64,000 nucleotides of DNA from Natronoarchaeum mannanilyticum (GTDB lineage: Archaea; Halobacteriota; Halobacteria; Halobacteriales; Natronoarchaeaceae): the NCBI RefSeq assembly GCF_039522665.1, contig NZ_BAAADV010000007.1, positions 558,001 to 622,000 of the forward strand. The letters run 5' to 3'. The notes under the pieces are model-generated. The model ran no database searches. It saw nothing but the letters and a program-made list of their open reading frames with translations, and was not told the origin of the DNA. Each line of letters begins with the position of its first letter. The stretch's first letter is position 1. The position numbers and the translations under genes were made by a program. Below are positions 4,434 to 63,406 of this stretch, piece by piece.

Positions 4434-4618
4434 CGAAAGCCCTCGGCCCGCTCCTAGCAACCGTGACAGCAGAGAACACCTGGACCGCGAAAGCCCTCGG
4501 CCCGCTCCTAGCAACGGTGAGAGCAGAGAACACCTGAATCGCGAAAGCCCTCGGCCCGCTCCTAGCAACGGTGAGAGCAGAGAACACCTGAATCGCGAAA
4601 GCCCTCGGCCCGCTCGCG
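4434..4618. repeat. 54-bp direct tandem repeat (three copies plus a partial fourth)
   Basis: Units begin at 4434, 4488, 4542 and 4596; the last stops after 23 bp. Each starts CGAAAGCCCTCGGCCCGCTC and continues CTAGCAACSGTGASAGCAGA. Units 2 and 3 are almost identical and unit 1 differs at a few positions. The same head sequence recurs, inverted, at 35124-35153 at the edge of element B. Because 54 is divisible by three the array is open in a minus-strand frame, but nothing else suggests coding. Confidence 0.93.
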
Positions 4619-5110
4619 GTGTCTGTGGTGGATATCCTCACTTCGTTCGGATAGTGCCACCGCAGACGCCGCGACCGCACCTCGCCCTTTCAGTCCACCG
4701 GAAGACTCGCTCCGCTCGTCTTCCGAGCCCTGCCTCGCTTCGCTCGGCAGGACACCAGGACAGTACCGCGACCGCTTGCGCGGGTCGCCACAAGGGCGAC
4801 CACGCGCACCCCGGCCCTCCCCCGGGGCGCGGCATGAACGCCGCGCCCGGCCATGCGGTTGCGGAGGCGCGCGCTGTCGAGCCTTCATGGCGAGACAGCA
4901 GCGCGCGAGGGGCGAACGAGGGAGCGACGCGACCGAGTGAGTCGGTTGGGGAGGATGAGGCTAGGTTGGGAGGGAATGAAAGGGGCCGCCGGGCTCGGTC
5001 CGGTGAGGCGAAGCAAGCACCACAGCGACTGAAAGGAGCGAGGAGCGCAGCGAGTCGCAACCGGTCGAGCCCGGCGGGGGCTTTCAGAGCGTTGTTGGCA
5101 GTCGCCACAG
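4600..5110. repeat. Intergenic hairpin-rich element A
   Basis: This fills the gap between the aminotransferase and the SDR gene, which has no credible gene. It aligns along its length with the reverse complement of 34640-35100 (element B). Hairpins seen: arms 4616-4625/4663-4672 with loop TCACTTCGTTC (4638-4648); GGAAGAC/GTCTTCC at 4700-4706/4718-4724 around TCGCTCCGCTC; CCTGCC/GGCAGG at 4729-4734/4746-4751 around TCGCTTCGCTC; and GGGCGCGGC/GCCGCGCCC at 4825-4848 around ATGAAC. Compared with B the stems change but stay complementary. Confidence 0.85.
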
Positions 5111-5206
5111 TGCCAGAGAACACGACAAATCTTCCCAGACCGTTCGCAGTTCGTGAGACTCCGGCGACGCGAACCATTTATCAGATAGCTCGCACCTGTT
5201 TTCAGT

Positions 5207-6075: not shown

Positions 6076-7011
6076 ATGTCGCTGGTGCTCCCGAGCGAGA
6101 TCGTCGTCGAGCGCTTCGTCCCCACGGCCCGAGCCATGCTGGCCGCGGCGCTCGACGAGCGGGAGTTCACCCAGCAGGAGATCGCCGACCGGATCGGCGT
6201 CACGCAGGCCGCGGTGAGCAACCTCGTCAACGGGAACGTCGCCGTCGAGGAGCGGTTCAGCGAGGATCCGCGGATGGTCGAGACGATCGAGCGCATCGCC
6301 GACGGGTTCGAGGACGATCGGATGGACGGCGTCGACGCCATGGCCGAACTGATCGCCCTGGTCGAAGCGTTCGAGGATCGGGGGCCGATCTGCGCCGTCC
6401 ACGAGGACGCGATGCCGGAACTTGAGGGACTGGGCTGCGATCTCTGCGTCCGGGGCACCGACTCGGAGGTGCTCGCCGAGCGGGACGTTCTGGCGTCGGT
6501 TCGCCGGGCCGCCCGCTTGCTCGCCGGCACCGACGCGGTGGCCGAGCACGTCCCCAACGTCGGCACCAACGTGGGGATGGCCCTGCCCGACGCCGAAGAC
6601 GCGACCGACGTGGCGGCGATCCCCGGCCGGATCTACCGGATGCGCGGCAGCGTCGAGGTGCCCGCCAACCCCGAGTTCGGCGCCTCCGAGCACGTCGCTC
6701 GGACGGTTCTCGCCGCCCGGAGCGTCGATCCGGACGTCCGCGCGGCGCTGAACGTCGGGACGAGCGACGCCCTGCTCGCCGCGGCCCGCGAGCGCGGGAT
6801 CGATCCCCTGGAGTTCGATCCCGACTACGAGGACCGCGGCGACCACCTGCGCGAAGCGCTGAACTCGCGCGGAGTCGTCCCGCCGGTCCTGTTCCATCGC
6901 GGCGCCTTCGGCATCGAGCCCGTGACGTTCGTGCTCGGGCGGAACGCCGTCGAAGCCGCCGAACTGGCCGTCGACCTCGCCGATCGAGCGGCGGGCGGCC
7001 ACGAAACGTAA
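6076..7011 (+). CDS. thiR: ThiR-type thiamine regulator (HTH plus ThiN domain)
   Basis: 311 residues. An N-terminal Cro/XRE-like helix-turn-helix (FTQQEIADRIGVTQAAVSNL, residues about 35-55) is joined to a C-terminal ThiN domain (about 130-305; EHVPNVGTNVGMALP, IPGRIYRMRGSV). ThiN alone is thiamine-phosphate synthase in archaea. HTH-ThiN fusions without the ThiD kinase are known as ThiR, regulators of archaeal thiamine genes that sense thiamine phosphate. A CxxC (CDLC) lies between the two domains. No thiamine gene is adjacent, so it probably acts in trans. The symbol rests on domain architecture. Confidence 0.82.
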   Translation: MSLVLPSEIVVERFVPTARAMLAAALDEREFTQQEIADRIGVTQAAVSNLVNGNVAVEERFSEDPRMVETIERIADGFEDDRMDGVDAMAELIALVEAFEDRGPICAVHEDAMPELEGLGCDLCVRGTDSEVLAERDVLASVRRAARLLAGTDAVAEHVPNVGTNVGMALPDAEDATDVAAIPGRIYRMRGSVEVPANPEFGASEHVARTVLAARSVDPDVRAALNVGTSDALLAAARERGIDPLEFDPDYEDRGDHLREALNSRGVVPPVLFHRGAFGIEPVTFVLGRNAVEAAELAVDLADRAAGGHET

Positions 7012-33277: not shown

Positions 33278-33413
33278 GCGCGAGGGAAGGCGGGCCTGGG
33301 GGAAAACGTTGCCCACTCGGCGGCGGCCTGCGAACGCGGACGGCCGGACGCGGTGCGAGTGCGACGCCAACGCTCAACCCGCGAGGCGTGGTACGCTCGC
33401 CCGGGGAGACTCC

Positions 33414-34639: not shown

Positions 34640-35155
34640 GACAGCACTGACTGCGAACTCCCCGAAAGCCCCCGCCGCGGTCGACCGGTTGCGACTCTCT
34701 GTGCGCTTCCTTCGCTCCTTTCAGTCGCTCAGTCCAGTGCTTGCTTCGTCTCACCGGGCCGACCGCGGCGGCCCCTTTCATTCCAACCCGACCGCAGCCT
34801 CGTCCTCCCCAGCCGACTCTCTCGGTCGCGCTGCTCCCTCGATCGTCCCTCGCGCGCTGCTGTCTCGTCACGAGGACTCGACAGCGCGCGCCACCGCAGC
34901 CGCACGGCCCGGCGCGCCTTCATGGCGCGCCGACGGGGGAGGGACAGGCTGCGCGTGGTCGCTGCAAGCGACCCGCGCAATGCGGTGCCCTGGCGGATTG
35001 AAAGGGCGAGGCACGGTGGACGGTTCTCGGTCGGCCCTATCCGAACGAAGTGAGGATATCCGGGCGAGAACCGTCGAGCGGGCCGAGGGCTTTCAGAGCC
35101 TTCCAGTCTGTCGCCGAACTCGCGACTGCTAGGAGCGGACCGAGGGCTTTCGCAG
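34640..35155. repeat. Intergenic hairpin-rich element B (inverted relative to A)
   Basis: Fills most of the 730-bp gap between the divergent UDG and small KOW-like genes; no gene is credible here. The reverse complement aligns with 4600-5110. Hairpins include arms 35020-35029/35065-35074 (ACGGTTCTCG/CGAGAACCGT) around loop GAACGAAGTGA (35043-35053), and GGCGCGCC/GGCGCGCC around TTCAT (34911-34931). The edge 35124-35153 repeats the head of the 54-bp unit of 4434-4618. Confidence 0.85.
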
Positions 35156-41118: not shown

Positions 41119-41625
41119 ATGGCACCCGTCGCAGCGATAACGATCGGCGGACGAGAGCTCAATCCCGCCCTCGGCGGCATCCTGGCAGTGATCGTCGGAC
41201 TCGCCATGGTCGGCTTCGGCGGCTACGACTACGTCCAGCAGAACGACGCCGTAGAGAACGCCGTCGAGGTGAACGCCACGGTCACCGAGACGGACATCGA
41301 CAGTATTTCCAATCGGCGCGCAGCCCCCGATTACCAACCCGAAGTCACCCTGGAGTACTCCTACGGTGGCGAAACGTACACGGGCGGAAGCGTGTTTCCG
41401 GCGTCGATATCGAAGGACTACGACACCAGATCGGCCGCCGAGTCGCGACTGGAGGGATACGAGGTCGGCGAGACGACCACCGCGTACGTCGATCCCGACG
41501 CGCCGGGCGACGCGTTCCTCGTGCGAGAGACCACCAACGAGCCGCTGAAGTTCGCCGGGATCGGCGGGTTCATGATGCTGCTAGGTGGGTGGTCGGTGTT
41601 CAAGAGTTGGTTCCGGGAGTCGTGA
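41119..41625 (+). CDS. DUF3592-domain membrane protein
   Basis: 168 residues. A first helix (ALGGILAVIVGLAMVGFGGY), an extracellular beta domain (VEVNATVTETDIDSISNRR, PEVTLEYSYGGETYTGGSVFP, GETTTAYVDPDAPGDAFL) and a last helix (FAGIGGFMMLLGGWSVFKSW) are the DUF3592 layout. The upstream frame from 40969 is open, but the ATG at 41119 with an ATTATTACC box about 28 bp upstream is preferred. Confidence 0.78.
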   Translation: MAPVAAITIGGRELNPALGGILAVIVGLAMVGFGGYDYVQQNDAVENAVEVNATVTETDIDSISNRRAAPDYQPEVTLEYSYGGETYTGGSVFPASISKDYDTRSAAESRLEGYEVGETTTAYVDPDAPGDAFLVRETTNEPLKFAGIGGFMMLLGGWSVFKSWFRES

Positions 41626-41686
41626 TGCGTTCGAGGTCCGTCTGAGTTGCATCATTTTAAAAAGGTTCGTTACGGATAGTCTGTCA

Positions 41687-42871
41687 ATGGACAGGGATGA
41701 AATTGACGAGTACGTCCGGCGGTGTCAGCAGCTCATCGAATCGTCACCGCAAATGGACGAAGAGAACACGAAGGTCAAACTCGTCCAACCGTTTCTCGAA
41801 CTGCTCGGGTGGGATCTCTACTCTACCGAAGTCGCGCTTGAGTATACTATCCCAATGGCCTCGGGGAGTACCCACGTAGATTACGCTCTTCTGGTCGGCG
41901 ACTCTCCCGTAGTGTTCGTTGAAGCCAAGCCAGTCCGGTCTGCCCTCACCGACAGCGAGATCCAGCAGTTGCGGAGTTACATGAGACAGGAACTCGACGT
42001 GGATTGGGGGATTCTGACCAACGGCAAGTCGTTTGAAGTATTGACCAAGAACCGACGCCAGAACGGCGGTGAGGAGGTGTCCGTCGTTCAGTTTGACCTC
42101 AATGACCTCGCCGAGAATCCGGATGTACTAGAGTTGCTCACGAAAGAATCGATACGATCCGGAAAGTCCGACGAAGTGGCCGAACAGGTCGCACAAACGA
42201 ACCGGGCAATTCGGCACTTGCAAGAAAACGAGGACAGTGTCACCGAGTCCATCACCGATGCGGTCGAGAGCGAGGTAGGTGAACTCACCATTGATCTCGA
42301 AGAGCAGTCCCGTGAGTTCGTCCAAAATCTCGTCTCGGTGCTTCGTGAACAGCGACACTTCGTTAGTGAGAAATCGCCGGAAGAACCCGATGAGAAAAAA
42401 GAAACAGAAAACGACCACACTCCTGACGACATAGAACCACTAGAGAACCAAGTAGCGGGCAAACTCGCCAGAAGCGAGATTGAAGGGGACCCAGATTCCC
42501 GTGTAGCCGTATTTCCAACGAAGGAAACTGGGCTTCCGTTCCTCAAAGAGAACGAGGCGTGGGGGTTCGTTCGGGTCGGAAGCGAATTTGATTACGTGGC
42601 GATGTACGTCACAGGTGATGTTCAGGAGGTCAAATACTTCGCTGAGGTGAACGACGTGGTCGAGCCCGAAAAGGCAGAGCTGATGCGAGAGCCGCTGAAC
42701 TATAAGGACCGAGCGAAGATTGAGGAAGGTAAGAAAGTCATTGAGTTCAAACCGGGATCACTCTACGAACTCGAAGACCCAGTCCCCTACGAGTCGAAGT
42801 ATCCACAGGGATTGAGGTATACGACTCTAAGACAGTTGCGGGATGCAAAGACAACCGATGATATGCTCTGA
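41687..42871 (+). CDS. Lone protein with type I restriction HsdR-like N-terminal nuclease domain
   Basis: 394 residues. About 25-140 is the HsdR_N-like PD-(D/E)xK fold: TKVKLVQPFLELLGWD, THVDYALLVGDSPVVFVEAK (D and ExK motif) and LDVDWGILTNGKSFEV. A coiled, Glu-rich middle (200-285) leads to a C-terminal domain (about 295-385) with AWGFVRVGSEFDYVAMYVTG and PQGLRYTTL that I do not recognise. There is no helicase, specificity or methylase gene nearby. Third-codon positions are much less GC-rich than in neighbours, and the tRNA-Leu composite repeat follows, so recent acquisition is likely. Confidence 0.85.
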   Translation: MDRDEIDEYVRRCQQLIESSPQMDEENTKVKLVQPFLELLGWDLYSTEVALEYTIPMASGSTHVDYALLVGDSPVVFVEAKPVRSALTDSEIQQLRSYMRQELDVDWGILTNGKSFEVLTKNRRQNGGEEVSVVQFDLNDLAENPDVLELLTKESIRSGKSDEVAEQVAQTNRAIRHLQENEDSVTESITDAVESEVGELTIDLEEQSREFVQNLVSVLREQRHFVSEKSPEEPDEKKETENDHTPDDIEPLENQVAGKLARSEIEGDPDSRVAVFPTKETGLPFLKENEAWGFVRVGSEFDYVAMYVTGDVQEVKYFAEVNDVVEPEKAELMREPLNYKDRAKIEEGKKVIEFKPGSLYELEDPVPYESKYPQGLRYTTLRQLRDAKTTDDML

Positions 42872-42947
42872 ATTAGTGTTTGTTTAGAACACTTCGAGGT
42901 TGTTCCCTACGACTTTACGCTCATCTTCGGGAGGTCGAACGCGTGAG

Positions 42948-43010
42948 TGCGCGGGACCGGATTCGAACCGGAGGAAGACTCGCTTCGCTCGTCTTCCAGG
43001 GTTCGAATCC
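42948..43010 (-). repeat. tRNA-Leu 3'-end copy with hairpin and inverted T arm
   Basis: Positions 42948-42971 repeat exactly the last 24 nt of the tRNA-Leu gene (43053-43076). Next come a hairpin with arms GGAAGAC/GTCTTCC (42973-42979/42991-42997) around an 11-nt loop, and an inverted T-arm copy: GGATTCGAACC (42959-42969) against GGTTCGAATCC (43000-43010). On the minus strand the loop reads GAGCGAAGCGA. Confidence 0.95.
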
Positions 43011-43052
43011 ACTGTTGTGCATACACGTCTCTCACTGGCGTTCGAGACGGTA

Positions 43053-43137
43053 TGCGCGGGACCGGATTCGAACCGGCGGACTCCTACGAGACAGCGTCCT
43101 AAGCGCTGCGCCGTTGGCCTAGCTTGGCTACCCGCGC
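43053..43137 (-). tRNA. tRNA-Leu (anticodon UAG)
   Basis: 85 nt, class II with a long variable arm. The acceptor GCGCGGG pairs with CCCGCGC, followed by discriminator A (43053). The anticodon stem CAGCG/CGCTG encloses CTTAGGA, giving anticodon TAG, which reads CUA and probably other CUN codons. The T loop is GGTTCGAATCC. CCA is not encoded and no intron is seen. A 24-nt copy of its 3' end lies 81 bp downstream. Confidence 0.96.
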
Positions 43138-43221
43138 TCGGCGCGAGGATTCGCCCGAGGAAACCAAGAAACTGTCGCTCCGGAGTCGGAGTTAAGCCCC
43201 TCGAACGCGTAGCCCCCGTCG

Positions 43222-43530
43222 ATGTACAGCGCCCGCGAGCGCGTCGAGAACGAGGAGTGGATCGAGGAGCTCCACGAGATCGCGGCGTCGATCGATCTCG
43301 ACGCCGACGCGCGATCGACGGCGATCGACCTGTTCCTGTCGAACCTGCCGGACGAGGAGCGCTCGAAGCGGGCGGTGCTGGCGGCGAGCCTCTACGCCGG
43401 CGCGCTGATCGAGAGCGACGCGCGCTCCCAGGGCGTCGTCGCCGACGCGGCGGGGGTCGCGCGGCTGACGATCCAACAGCGCTGGAAGGAGATTCTGCGC
43501 GAGGCGGGGATGGAACCGCCGACGTGGTGA
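43222..43530 (+). CDS. Single-cyclin TFIIB-like protein
   Basis: 102 residues: an N-terminal helix (SARERVENEEWIEELHEIAA) then one cyclin-like repeat, DARSTAIDLFLSNLPDEERS, KRAVLAASLYAGALIES, VADAAGVARLTIQQRWKEIL. The last part has the TFB DNA-contacting helix pattern. There is no zinc ribbon or B finger. It resembles a short haloarchaeal TFIIB-like family of unknown role and may act as an adaptor or competitor of TFB. A GAGTTAAGC box about 30 bp upstream supports the ATG. Confidence 0.82.
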   Translation: MYSARERVENEEWIEELHEIAASIDLDADARSTAIDLFLSNLPDEERSKRAVLAASLYAGALIESDARSQGVVADAAGVARLTIQQRWKEILREAGMEPPTW

Positions 43531-44025
43531 TCAGTCCGGCTGGACCTGCCCGCGACCGTCCCGATCCGGCGTCCGGTTGCCGTGCTCGTCGATCTCGCCG
43601 CGGACGATCCGCGTGCTGGAGATGATCTCGCCGTCCTCGGCGCGGACGTGGTCGACGACGTCGATCGACAGCGGGTCGACGCCCCGTTCCTCGCGGAGTT
43701 CGTTGATGCGCTGGGCGCCGTCGACCGTCTCCGGGGAAACCACGAGGTAGTCGAACTGGGGTTCCGTCGCGATGCCGGTCGGATCGTCGAGCGGTCGGAT
43801 CTCGTACTCGCGGTCGTACTCCTCGGCGAAAGCGTCGAGCTCGTCGGCGAGGTCCGCCCGGCGCTCGTCGTACGGTCGGACGTACCGATCCTCCGAGCGA
43901 GTTTTGGGCGCAAGCTCGTCGCTGGTCAGGCCGATGGTGACGTCGCCCAGCTCGAACGCGCGGTCGAACAGGGCGCGGTGACCGTCGTGCACCGGATCGA
44001 ACGTGCCACCCAGCGCGACGTCCAT
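43531..44025 (-). CDS. coaD: Phosphopantetheine adenylyltransferase (archaeal CoaD)
   Basis: 164 residues. The nucleotidyltransferase loop GGTFDPVHDGHRALFDRAFE has the HxGH-type motif, followed by IGLTSDELAPKTRSEDRYV and a C-terminal IISSTRIVRGEID (ISSTxIR). It transfers AMP to 4'-phosphopantetheine in CoA synthesis. Archaeal enzymes are monomers of this length. Its stop directly abuts that of the TFIIB-like gene. Confidence 0.93.
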   Translation of the reverse strand: MDVALGGTFDPVHDGHRALFDRAFELGDVTIGLTSDELAPKTRSEDRYVRPYDERRADLADELDAFAEEYDREYEIRPLDDPTGIATEPQFDYLVVSPETVDGAQRINELREERGVDPLSIDVVDHVRAEDGEIISSTRIVRGEIDEHGNRTPDRDGRGQVQPD

Positions 44026-58974: not shown

Positions 58975-59272
58975 AGTGGCCGGGCGCGGCGTTCATGTTC
59001 GCGCGAGCGAGCTCGGAAGACGCTCTGCGTCTTCCGGTGCCGCGCCCTGGGGGAGGGCAGGCCCGCGGTACGGTTGCTGTCGCTGTGCGGTGGCGGTGCT
59101 GTGTGGTCCTGGCGTCCTGACGAGCGAAGCGAGTCAGGGCTCGGAAGACGAGCGGTGCGCGGTTCGGAACGAAGTGAGAACCGCGAAAGCGAACGGCGAA
59201 GCCGTGAGCGTAGTGAGTCTTCCGGCGGAAATGCAAAGGGCGAGCGACCGAAGGGAGCGAGGGCTTTGCTAC
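58975..59272. repeat. Intergenic hairpin element C with nested hairpins
   Basis: Fills the gap between the thiolase and PAC2 genes. Outer arms GGGCGCGGC/GCCGCGCCC (58982-58990/59039-59047) enclose an inner hairpin GGAAGACGC/GCGTCTTCC (59015-59035). Then CCTGAC/GTCAGG (59116-59138) has loop GAGCGAAGCGA. GGAAGAC/GTCTTCC (59143-59149/59217-59223) encloses another, GCGGTTC/GAACCGC (59159-59165/59178-59184). No gene is credible. Confidence 0.8.
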
Positions 59273-60030
59273 CCGATGTAGCGCAGATCGTCGTCGCTCG
59301 GGACGTTGGGCTGCTGTTGTTGCTCCATCTCCTGGATCTTGCCGATGACTTCCTCCATCTCCTCGGCGCGGTCCTCCAGGTCCGCGAAGTCGACCTCGAA
59401 GTCGAGCTGGTCCTGCAGGATCTCCAGCACGGCCTGGGCGCTCTTGGGATCGACGAGGTAGCCGCTGGTCTCGCCCATCAGGCAGGCCGCGTCGACGCCG
59501 CGACGCTCGCCCAGCCCGAGCAGGAGGCCGCTGACGCCGACGATGCCGCCGGCGGGCTCGTCCTCCCGGAACTCGACGTCCAGCTCTTCGAGGGCGTCGA
59601 CGAGCGCCTCGCCCGTGGCGGCGCCGAGCACGTCGTACTCCTCGATGAGTTCGCCCGTCGGGACGCCGCCGAGCGCGTACACCTCGGAGACGTCAAAGTC
59701 CTCGGCGACGTCGAGGAAGGCGTCGGTCAGTCGGTAGTGGCCCTCGTTGCTCTGGGCCTGGTTGTCGCCCGTGAGAACGAGCAGGTCCCGACCCTCCGTC
59801 TCGACGGCGTGGAACTCCGCGCTGGTGAGCTCGGCGACGCCCTCGTCGCCGACCTCGACCTGCGGCGGGAAGTGCTCGGAGTAGACGCGGCGCACGAGCG
59901 TCCCGTCGAGCTCGTCGAGCAGGTGCTCGGCGGCGAGCTTGCCGACGTGGCCGACGCCGGGCAGCCCCTCGACGAGCACCGGATCGTCCAGTTCGGCCTC
60001 AGCGACCGCCTCGATGTCGAGTTCGTCCAT
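59269..60030 (-). CDS. Proteasome assembly chaperone (PAC2) family protein
   Basis: 253 residues with PAC2 hallmarks: PVLVEGLPGVGHVGKLAAEHL, SEHFPPQVEVGDEG, LLVLTGDNQAQSNEGHYRLT, VYALGGVPTGEL and GVSGLLLGLGERRGVDAACL. Eukaryotic PAC2 helps build the alpha ring; archaeal function is less clear. It ends the L44e-S27e-aIF2alpha-Nop10 operon, five bases after Nop10. Confidence 0.93.
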   Translation of the reverse strand: MDELDIEAVAEAELDDPVLVEGLPGVGHVGKLAAEHLLDELDGTLVRRVYSEHFPPQVEVGDEGVAELTSAEFHAVETEGRDLLVLTGDNQAQSNEGHYRLTDAFLDVAEDFDVSEVYALGGVPTGELIEEYDVLGAATGEALVDALEELDVEFREDEPAGGIVGVSGLLLGLGERRGVDAACLMGETSGYLVDPKSAQAVLEILQDQLDFEVDFADLEDRAEEMEEVIGKIQEMEQQQQPNVPSDDDLRYIG

Positions 60031-62983: not shown

Positions 62984-63058
62984 AGCGGGATGGGATAGCC
63001 AGGAGATTCCGGCGGGCTCATAACCCGCAGACCGGTGGTTCAAATCCACCTCCCGCTA
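62984..63058 (+). tRNA. Initiator tRNA-Met (anticodon CAU)
   Basis: 75 nt. The acceptor AGCGGGA pairs with TCCCGCT, so position 1 is an A:U pair as in archaeal initiators, with discriminator A at 63058. The anticodon stem GCGGG/CCCGC encloses CTCATAA with the three G:C pairs characteristic of initiators. T arm: GTGGTTCAAATCCAC. CCA is not encoded; no intron is seen. Confidence 0.97.
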
Positions 63059-63131
63059 CTTCTTCCGAATCCAACTCTCAAGCGAGGCGTTTTATCGCCG
63101 AGCAACTGCTGGATTCGGAGGAGTACGACGA

Positions 63132-63196
63132 GTGGATTTGAACGAGAGAAACGCGAGCGGAGCGAGCGTTTCGCGTTGTTCAAATCCACCTCCCGC
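63132..63196 (+). repeat. tRNA-Met 3'-end copy with hairpin and inverted T arm
   Basis: 63178-63196 repeats 19 nt of the tRNA-Met 3' half (63038-63056). The inverted T arm GTGGATTTGAAC (63132-63143) pairs with GTTCAAATCCAC (63178-63189), and a hairpin with arms GAAACGC/GCGTTTC (63148-63154/63166-63172) lies between, its loop being GAGCGGAGCGA. Architecture is the same as downstream of tRNA-Leu. The rest of the gap 63197-63406 shows no recognised gene or RNA. Confidence 0.95.
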
Positions 63197-63406
63197 CGCT
63201 GCGGTCGGAGAACCCCGCCGACCGGTCCGTGCGAACGCCTTATCTCCGAGTCGGGCCTACATCGCTACAGCAACCGATCGTCCACAGTGTGCGTCCGCCG
63301 GCACGGCGGTGGACGCAGCGACGGCGGTGCAGTCGACCCTCGCCGTAGTTTCCGCGTGGTTCGCATACAGAGTTCACGCGTCGTTGTCGGAGAGCGGACC
63401 ACAACA

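Follow-up and report, generated by a model that had tools for sequence, protein, structure and literature searches.

A tRNA-Leu gene of Natronoarchaeum mannanilyticum, in a window of 64,000 nt (the whole stretch of DNA analysed here), is followed by a repeat of its own 3′ end, and the question is what kind of event leaves such a copy there, with palindromes in between. The preliminary description of this locus reported an exact 24-nt repeat of the tRNA 3′ end with 81 bp between, an inverted T arm opposite the T arm of the copy, and a 7-bp stem with an 11-nt loop between the two arms. All three were borne out by the sequence (Table 1), and 27 of 28 nt agreed in a wider comparison. The segment closest to the tRNA, absent from that description, was found to be a second hairpin. 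Reading outward from the tRNA on the minus strand, the order is thus hairpin A, inverted T arm, hairpin B and direct copy. The last 22 nt of the tRNA occurred at only two sites in the window at up to 3 mismatches (0.01 expected from shuffling), and the 105-nt unit, as single-stranded DNA, folded into exactly hairpins A and B (z −3.8).

Just past this unit, at 41585–42871, lies a gene of low GC content that encodes a type I restriction HSDR_N domain and is probably foreign. Opposite the tRNA and its copy, in antisense, long ORFs (42880–43625) encode the peptides DRIRTGG and AGPDSNRR, which are the product of antisense tRNA tails and easy to mistake for genes. In the Rfam search the threshold was reached by the tRNA alone; a mir-9223 hit (E 0.34), far under the cut-off, was taken as chance.

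Table 1. Positions of the two tRNA tail units and their host genes in the window.
Feature	Position	Strand	Basis or remark
tRNA-Leu (anticodon TAG), host gene	43053..43137	-	ARAGORN; also Infernal
tRNA-Leu nt 52-73, tail that is copied	43053..43074	-	
Hairpin A, tRNA-Leu unit: 6-bp stem 43026-43031 / 43044-43049, minus-strand loop GAACGCCAGTGA	43026..43049	-	sequence and fold
Inverted T-arm copy, tRNA-Leu unit, minus-strand reading GGATTCGAACC (opposite arm, in the direct copy: 42959-42969)	43000..43010	-	
Hairpin B, tRNA-Leu unit: 7-bp stem 42973-42979 / 42991-42997, minus-strand loop GAGCGAAGCGA at 42980-42990	42973..42997	-	
Direct copy of tRNA-Leu nt 52-73, with the discriminator base as its end	42948..42969	-	22/22 identical
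tRNA-Met (CAT), host gene of second unit	62984..63059	+	ARAGORN and Infernal match
Long hairpin A, tRNA-Met unit	63065..63118	+	read from sequence
Inverted T arm GTGGATTTGAAC, tRNA-Met unit	63132..63143	+	read from sequence
Hairpin B, tRNA-Met unit, loop GAGCGGAGCGA at 63155-63165	63148..63172	+	
Direct copy of tRNA-Met nt 52-73	63177..63198	+	19/22 identical

An independent second example was found in the same window at tRNA-Met (62984–63198). A tRNA-Arg call by ARAGORN at 33289–33380 was dropped as a probable false prediction, Infernal finding none there. Mosaic palindromes also occur away from tRNAs, at 4500–5150, 34950–35150 and 58980–59330; they contain GARCGNAGYGA hairpins, one of them being GGAAGACGAGCGGAGCGAGTCTTCC, and are flanked by TGAAAGGG / GGGCTTTCA inverted repeats. 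Within one of these mosaics, positions 4500–4607 form a perfect 54-bp tandem pair.

The preliminary description had proposed searching the 3′ flanks of haloarchaeal tRNAs for this structure, and the search revealed it behind 16 kinds of tRNA across the order Halobacteriales. With a strict composite pattern (inverted T arm, 18–48 nt, T arm), 157 of 293 Halobacteriales genomes had composites and none of those listed had the reversed control pattern; a second draw of genomes gave 36 of 53 in the order and 0 of 241 elsewhere in the phylum. The anatomy in Halobacteria is the same as in the window: hairpin A, inverted T arm of the host tRNA, hairpin B, and nt 52–73 copied directly up to the 3′ end of the tRNA gene, with a narrow spacing between copies, mostly about 70–155 bp. 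Among 144 composites in fetched halobacterial loci, a count that excludes nine loci as non-halobacterial (five by record title, and L152, L153, L154 and L163 judged from sequence), 135 lay within 300 nt 3′ of a tRNA and none solely on the 5′ side; four were too close to a contig edge to judge and five had no tRNA called by ARAGORN.

A pattern-free survey of three genomes, scoring any copy of nt 52–73 with at least 17 of 22 positions matching within 300 nt of a tRNA, showed a downstream copy at 17 of 36 tRNAs in the genome of the window (G000), 19 of 39 in G019 and 21 of 40 in G044, tRNAs with a T arm off the search expression being omitted (in G000, for example, Tyr, Pro-GGG and Val-GAC). Upstream copies numbered zero, one and one, respectively. 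No downstream tail copy was found at 21 tRNAs, fetched out of 92 listed, in two non-halobacterial genomes. A figure of 55 of 59 genomes from blastn was discarded as a count, many of the matches being the tRNA-Leu 3′ end alone.

A Woesearchaeota record (L089, positions 6242–6440) carries a tRNA-Ser followed by an inverted T arm, a hairpin and a direct tail copy, and the pattern is therefore not strictly limited to Halobacteria. Phage records gave no match to the units and plasmid records a single short match of 32 nt. Ten pattern matches in IMG/VR were bacterial-looking and of another kind. In Bifidobacterium genomes and IMG/VR contigs (L076, L077, L181–L185, L188, L189) we observed a near-perfect palindrome of an apparent tRNA-Met 3′ half, running from the anticodon stem to the T arm with a short loop, beside an apparent second tRNA 3′ end; this is a different analogue of an inverted T arm and perhaps a prophage att site.

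The copied block has sharp edges. Across 108 first units, the tRNA and its copy agreed at 0.90–1.00 per position over nt 52–73, falling to 0.41 at nt 51 and 0.55 at position +1, against 0.24 and 0.49 for other tRNAs as a null. Because the composite pattern fixed most of nt 52–62, the left edge was rechecked on the pattern-free units of the three genomes: in 55 first copies of 89 units the agreement was 0.78 at nt 52 and 0.91–1.00 at nt 53–73, and over all 89 units it was 0.16–0.43 at nt 49–51. Some copies start with AC-TTC or AG-TTC, with a matching change in the inverted arm, which places the left edge of the copy near the G53/T54 border.

The tail is that of the local gene. In 77 of 108 first units nt 63–73 were identical to the own tRNA, and in 94 the own tRNA was closer to the copy than all tRNAs of other amino acids; 4 of 89 copies fitted the tail of another tRNA better. 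The Leu-TAA array of G044 contains a unit with a Leu-TAG-type tail, and Val-CAC and Val-GAC have a common tail and common units. A perfect tandem duplication, a 154-bp repeat, was found at a tRNA-Arg (L009).

The inverted arm likewise follows its host. The base opposite R57 fitted the tRNA in 102 of 108 first units, and at His, Gly-CCC and Lys, where the T arm is unusual, the inverted arm follows it. For the comparison of shared hairpins, 79 of 89 units could be split into parts. Where one genome had the same hairpin B (at least 90%) behind different tRNAs, the own tRNA was the closer match to the inverted arm in all 20 comparisons, and in seven of eight where both A and B were shared; Lys-TTT, Arg-CCG and Arg-TCT of G044, for instance, have nearly the same hairpins and three different local inverted tails. 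The region ahead of the inverted arm gave little signal in a rigid 11-nt comparison with the tRNA acceptor (3.40 vs 3.06 matches); with gaps, the own tRNA scored 4.47 vs 3.70, and of the 79 units left after 10 of the 89 were dropped for a poor inverted arm, 56 exceeded the mean of the others. By these two comparisons the inverted acceptor part is a weak, mostly decayed remnant. At three loci of the window genome (L197, L198, L202), a tRNA-Ala or tRNA-Arg lacks a direct copy and has behind it a hairpin and an inverted copy of nt 63–73; these are possibly half-formed or decayed units.

Both hairpins are oriented. Relative to the tRNA, the GARC..GYGA loop lay on the sense strand in 82 of 108 A spacers and was reversed in none; for hairpin B the counts were 103 of 140 sense and 4 reversed. 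The core GAGCGRAGCGA suggested earlier as the mark of the hairpin did not prove general: exact GARCGNAGYGA was present in 72 of 140 hairpins B. Genome-wide, GARC..GYGA matched 198 times and the reversed pattern 75 times, and since the loop motif is scattered elsewhere in the genome, hairpins A and B belong to a wider halobacterial stock. GCGAAGC is described as a stable mini-hairpin.

Among the 42 distinct composites of the 69-nt class, the listed base pairs were present in 96.7% of cells, and 77 double-change cells were counted against 29 after shuffling, with all five outer pairs of hairpin B covarying. Hairpin B alone had unremarkable MFE z-scores (median −0.38, with 16 of 140 under −2), which may reflect shuffles that keep GC-rich dinucleotides; for hairpin A, 34 of 108 fell below −2, against 8 of 110 random 47-mers. 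The inverted arms are nested, with an asymmetric internal bulge, and of fixed orientation. By eye, A at its start forms no evident inverted repeat with the end of B, and no terminal inverted repeats, which in MITEs are related to a transposon, could be defined. Several tRNAs of G019 and G044 (L244, L263, L264, L283) have a recurrent segment, ACTTTTTCCGAG...CTCGCAAAAACTTGGGGAAAAA around a hairpin, between their tail copies; it is a candidate for another repeat family.

Precise empty sites, which the preliminary description had proposed to look for in close relatives, were found between sister species. We compared 40 tRNAs of the congeners G019 and G044, including a Ser-CGA row that may be a mispredicted tRNA. 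Thirteen loci were unit-free in both, with mostly conserved flanks (not at a few, such as Asn and Thr-CGT); 27 had a unit in one genome or the other, and 25 of these differed in the number or identity of units. Three loci differed by one clean unit of about 100–118 bp: Glu-CTC, with the extra unit in G019 and the next ~250 nt nearly identical in both genomes, and Glu-TTC and Val-GAC, with the extra units in G044. All three extra units abut the tRNA directly, and the older flank is intact past the copy. A third, incomplete congener is without the Glu-TTC unit, but its flank differs, and so the polarity of gain or loss that it gives is weak. Recombination between the 22-bp direct tails would remove a unit and leave the same clean differences; the comparison is thus compatible with insertion and with loss, proving neither insertion nor the direction of change.

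Considering these results, the best explanation, to which we give somewhat less than an even chance, is that the units are short, non-coding, mobile halobacterial elements which insert into tRNA genes at their T arm and duplicate about 20 bp of target. It starts from the constant anatomy, the sharp-edged block of nt 52–73, the match to the own tRNA, the loop polarity, the clean presence or absence of units and the shared hairpins with local tails. A reaction that recognises GGTTCRAAYCC would open the gene close to the G53/T54 border and behind nt 73, and a unit of hairpin A, inverted tail and hairpin B would be placed at the break, with the tail (about nt 54–73) ending up on both sides of it. 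The tRNA would thereby stay intact and the previous unit be pushed downstream, the newest unit sitting next to the tRNA. Because the distance from the T arm to the 3′ end is constant in tRNAs, a fixed stagger of about 20 bp would always end at nt 73. Plain target duplication gives no local inverted arm, which therefore calls for fold-back synthesis or fast correction of the palindrome; the local tRNA may serve as the template for rebuilding or correcting the arm through fold-back synthesis. Units would then be gained by insertion and not only lost, and a recombinase may be the agent. The candidate enzyme families tested, Cas1 and Y1 transposase, gave none common to all 17 genomes: Cas1 (PF01867) was found in 3 of 17 and in neither of the unit-bearing G000 and G019, and Y1 transposase (PF01797) in 12 of 17, the five lacking it including G012, G106, G159 and G237 with 4–6 strict composites each. 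Missing from 14 and 5 of the 17 genomes, respectively, neither at present looks like a general motor. Also against the explanation stand the 4 of 89 copies nearer to another tRNA's tail, the mostly decayed acceptor part of the inverted arm, the ordinary stability of hairpin B by itself, and the lack of definable terminal inverted repeats.

The main rival, which we consider rather unlikely, is enzyme-free template switching during replication, with hairpins A and B as turn-round points and the tail copied backwards and then, after B, forwards; ectopic pairing of T arms and hairpins would move A and B between tRNAs, and gene conversion would keep the tails identical. The unit literally reads tail, hairpin, inverted tail, hairpin, tail, and the fit of the base opposite R57, the arms that follow the odd T arms of His, Gly-CCC and Lys, the hairpin and inverted nt 63–73 without a direct copy at L197, L198 and L202, the perfect 154-bp duplication at L009 and the lack of an enzyme family common to all genomes tested all agree with it. 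However, template switching leaves unexplained the sharp edge at nt 73, the lack of units on the 5′ side, and new hairpin sequences that are absent from the empty site. Of the two origins offered by the preliminary description, fold-back copying of the tRNA 3′ end draws support from an inverted arm that tracks the local tRNA, and a mobile hairpin targeting T arms from units that come and go precisely between sister species; neither amounts to proof. A selected RNA structure, in which trailer hairpins and alternative pairing of the tRNA with the copied tail control processing or termination, would account for the covariation of stem B (five of five outer pairs; 77 vs 29 double-change cells) and the strict loop polarity, and the predicted RNA fold of tRNA plus unit does pair the 5′ acceptor strand with the copied tail; but we judge it improbable, as sister species differ at 25 of 27 unit-bearing loci and mostly keep the flanks of the 13 unit-free ones, which is not the behaviour of a needed regulator.

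We regard as quite improbable that the units are scars of virus or plasmid tyrosine-integrase elements at tRNA 3′ ends, later deleted to their ends. Such ends are described as the usual archaeal att sites in the relevant part of PMC8371274, and the low-GC gene just past the tRNA-Leu unit looks foreign; against this stand the narrow unit length, edges that are constant over 16 tRNA types, the high frequency with which units recur, and haloviral records that held no match (none in phages, and the ten IMG/VR matches bacterial-looking). The interpretation in the preliminary description, that a plain att copy does not suffice for the inverted arm and hairpin and that fold-back copying or a mobile hairpin would explain them, is supported in part. 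Exchange of integron-like cassettes, where the inverted T arm, hairpin B and T arm fold into an attC-like site, the T arm docks and the cassette tail restores the tRNA, would suit the nested inverted arms with their asymmetric bulge and fixed orientation, as well as the Leu-TAG-type tail in the Leu-TAA array of G044 and the tail and units shared by Val-CAC and Val-GAC. It is very improbable in our view, for the same A and B stand at tRNAs with different tails that are always local, which a carried tail would not give. Hardly credible is insertion by a Cas1-type enzyme or casposase as in spacer uptake: the A. boonei enzyme recognises TCAAATC, a T-loop sequence, at the tRNA-Pro 3′ end (PMC6614799, in the part dealing with its target) and leader-proximal growth looks alike, but 14 of 17 genomes, including G000 and G019, have no Cas1 domain, and the block here is about 20–22 bp and starts inside the T arm.

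Returning to mobile tail units, a larger claim can be made, which we think possible and on balance doubt: a halobacterial insertion system specific to tRNA tails would build polarised, CRISPR-like arrays at many tRNAs, each event adding at the T arm one unit of two hairpins, structured as a single strand, and copying the local tail forwards and backwards, unlike described transposition, integration or spacer acquisition. We know of no described system that copies its target in both directions, and no description of such tRNA-tail arrays was found among open-licence PMC papers, which speaks only weakly for their absence from the literature. Of the tRNA genes examined in three haloarchaeal genomes, about half have units behind them, and the turnover of units between sister species with the tRNAs intact points to an unrecognised DNA rearrangement activity on highly conserved genes. 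If driven by a recombinase, this would be a new way of inserting DNA harmlessly at tRNA tails; if by replication alone, a striking natural system of fold-back copying and palindrome correction. In either case the units bear on why integration prefers tRNA 3′ ends. Haloferax is a genus with good genetics, and since units occur in Haloferax species (L097, L113, L130), the question of their origin is directly testable.

Integron arrays are among the closest known systems. The attC site is an imperfect palindrome with two nested inverted arms and fixed orientation, and its cassettes form arrays; the units have such a palindromic site, nested arms, orientation and array form, but unlike integron cassettes they hold no gene, and their tails are local to each tRNA and not carried. 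The unrelated variable spacers of CRISPR are not seen either, the sequences between copies being recurrent hairpin families. Casposons are alike in their T-loop target at a tRNA 3′ end, target duplication and leader-side growth; they carry genes and terminal inverted repeats, and the A. boonei casposase duplicates 14–15 bp starting 8 bp past TCAAATC (PMC6614799). In contrast, the units have no genes, their block covers nt 52/54–73 and so begins in the T arm rather than giving a 14–15-bp duplication, and Cas1 is absent from 14 of 17 genomes.

Tyrosine-integrase elements of the SNJ2, pNOB8 and SSV families also leave a partial tRNA 3′ copy at one side, the part of PMC8371274 that treats them states, and a 22-nt direct copy of this kind is present in the units. 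Those elements span kilobases and usually encode an integrase (PMC8371274, same part), whereas the units are tandem, about 70–150 bp, and have an inverted T arm and two hairpins; the interval of about 70–155 bp between tRNA and tail copy is too short for an integrase gene. Traces of integrations and CRISPR spacers in the form of tRNA fragments are the subject of PMC9897764, which reports nothing on halophiles, its text having no word that begins with halo. The PATEs and SMRs of Haloquadratum resemble the units as short, non-coding, palindromic mobile repeats without a transposase (PMC3119063, in the sections on these repeats). According to the same sections neither of them duplicates its target, and SMRs are located inside other mobile elements; the units differ from both in that the tRNA tail is duplicated directly and that they lie almost only behind tRNAs (135 of 144). 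IS605-derived elements such as PATEs are mobilised by a Y1 (TnpA) transposase, which 12 of the 17 genomes encode. Plain integrase att scars, casposons or Cas1, and PATE elements each fail a feature that was tested, with the MITE comparison staying undecided. At the broadest level the units are short mobile palindromic repeats; within that range, with the known families set against it failing at least one defining feature each, MITEs again undecided, we rate this kind of unit as new.
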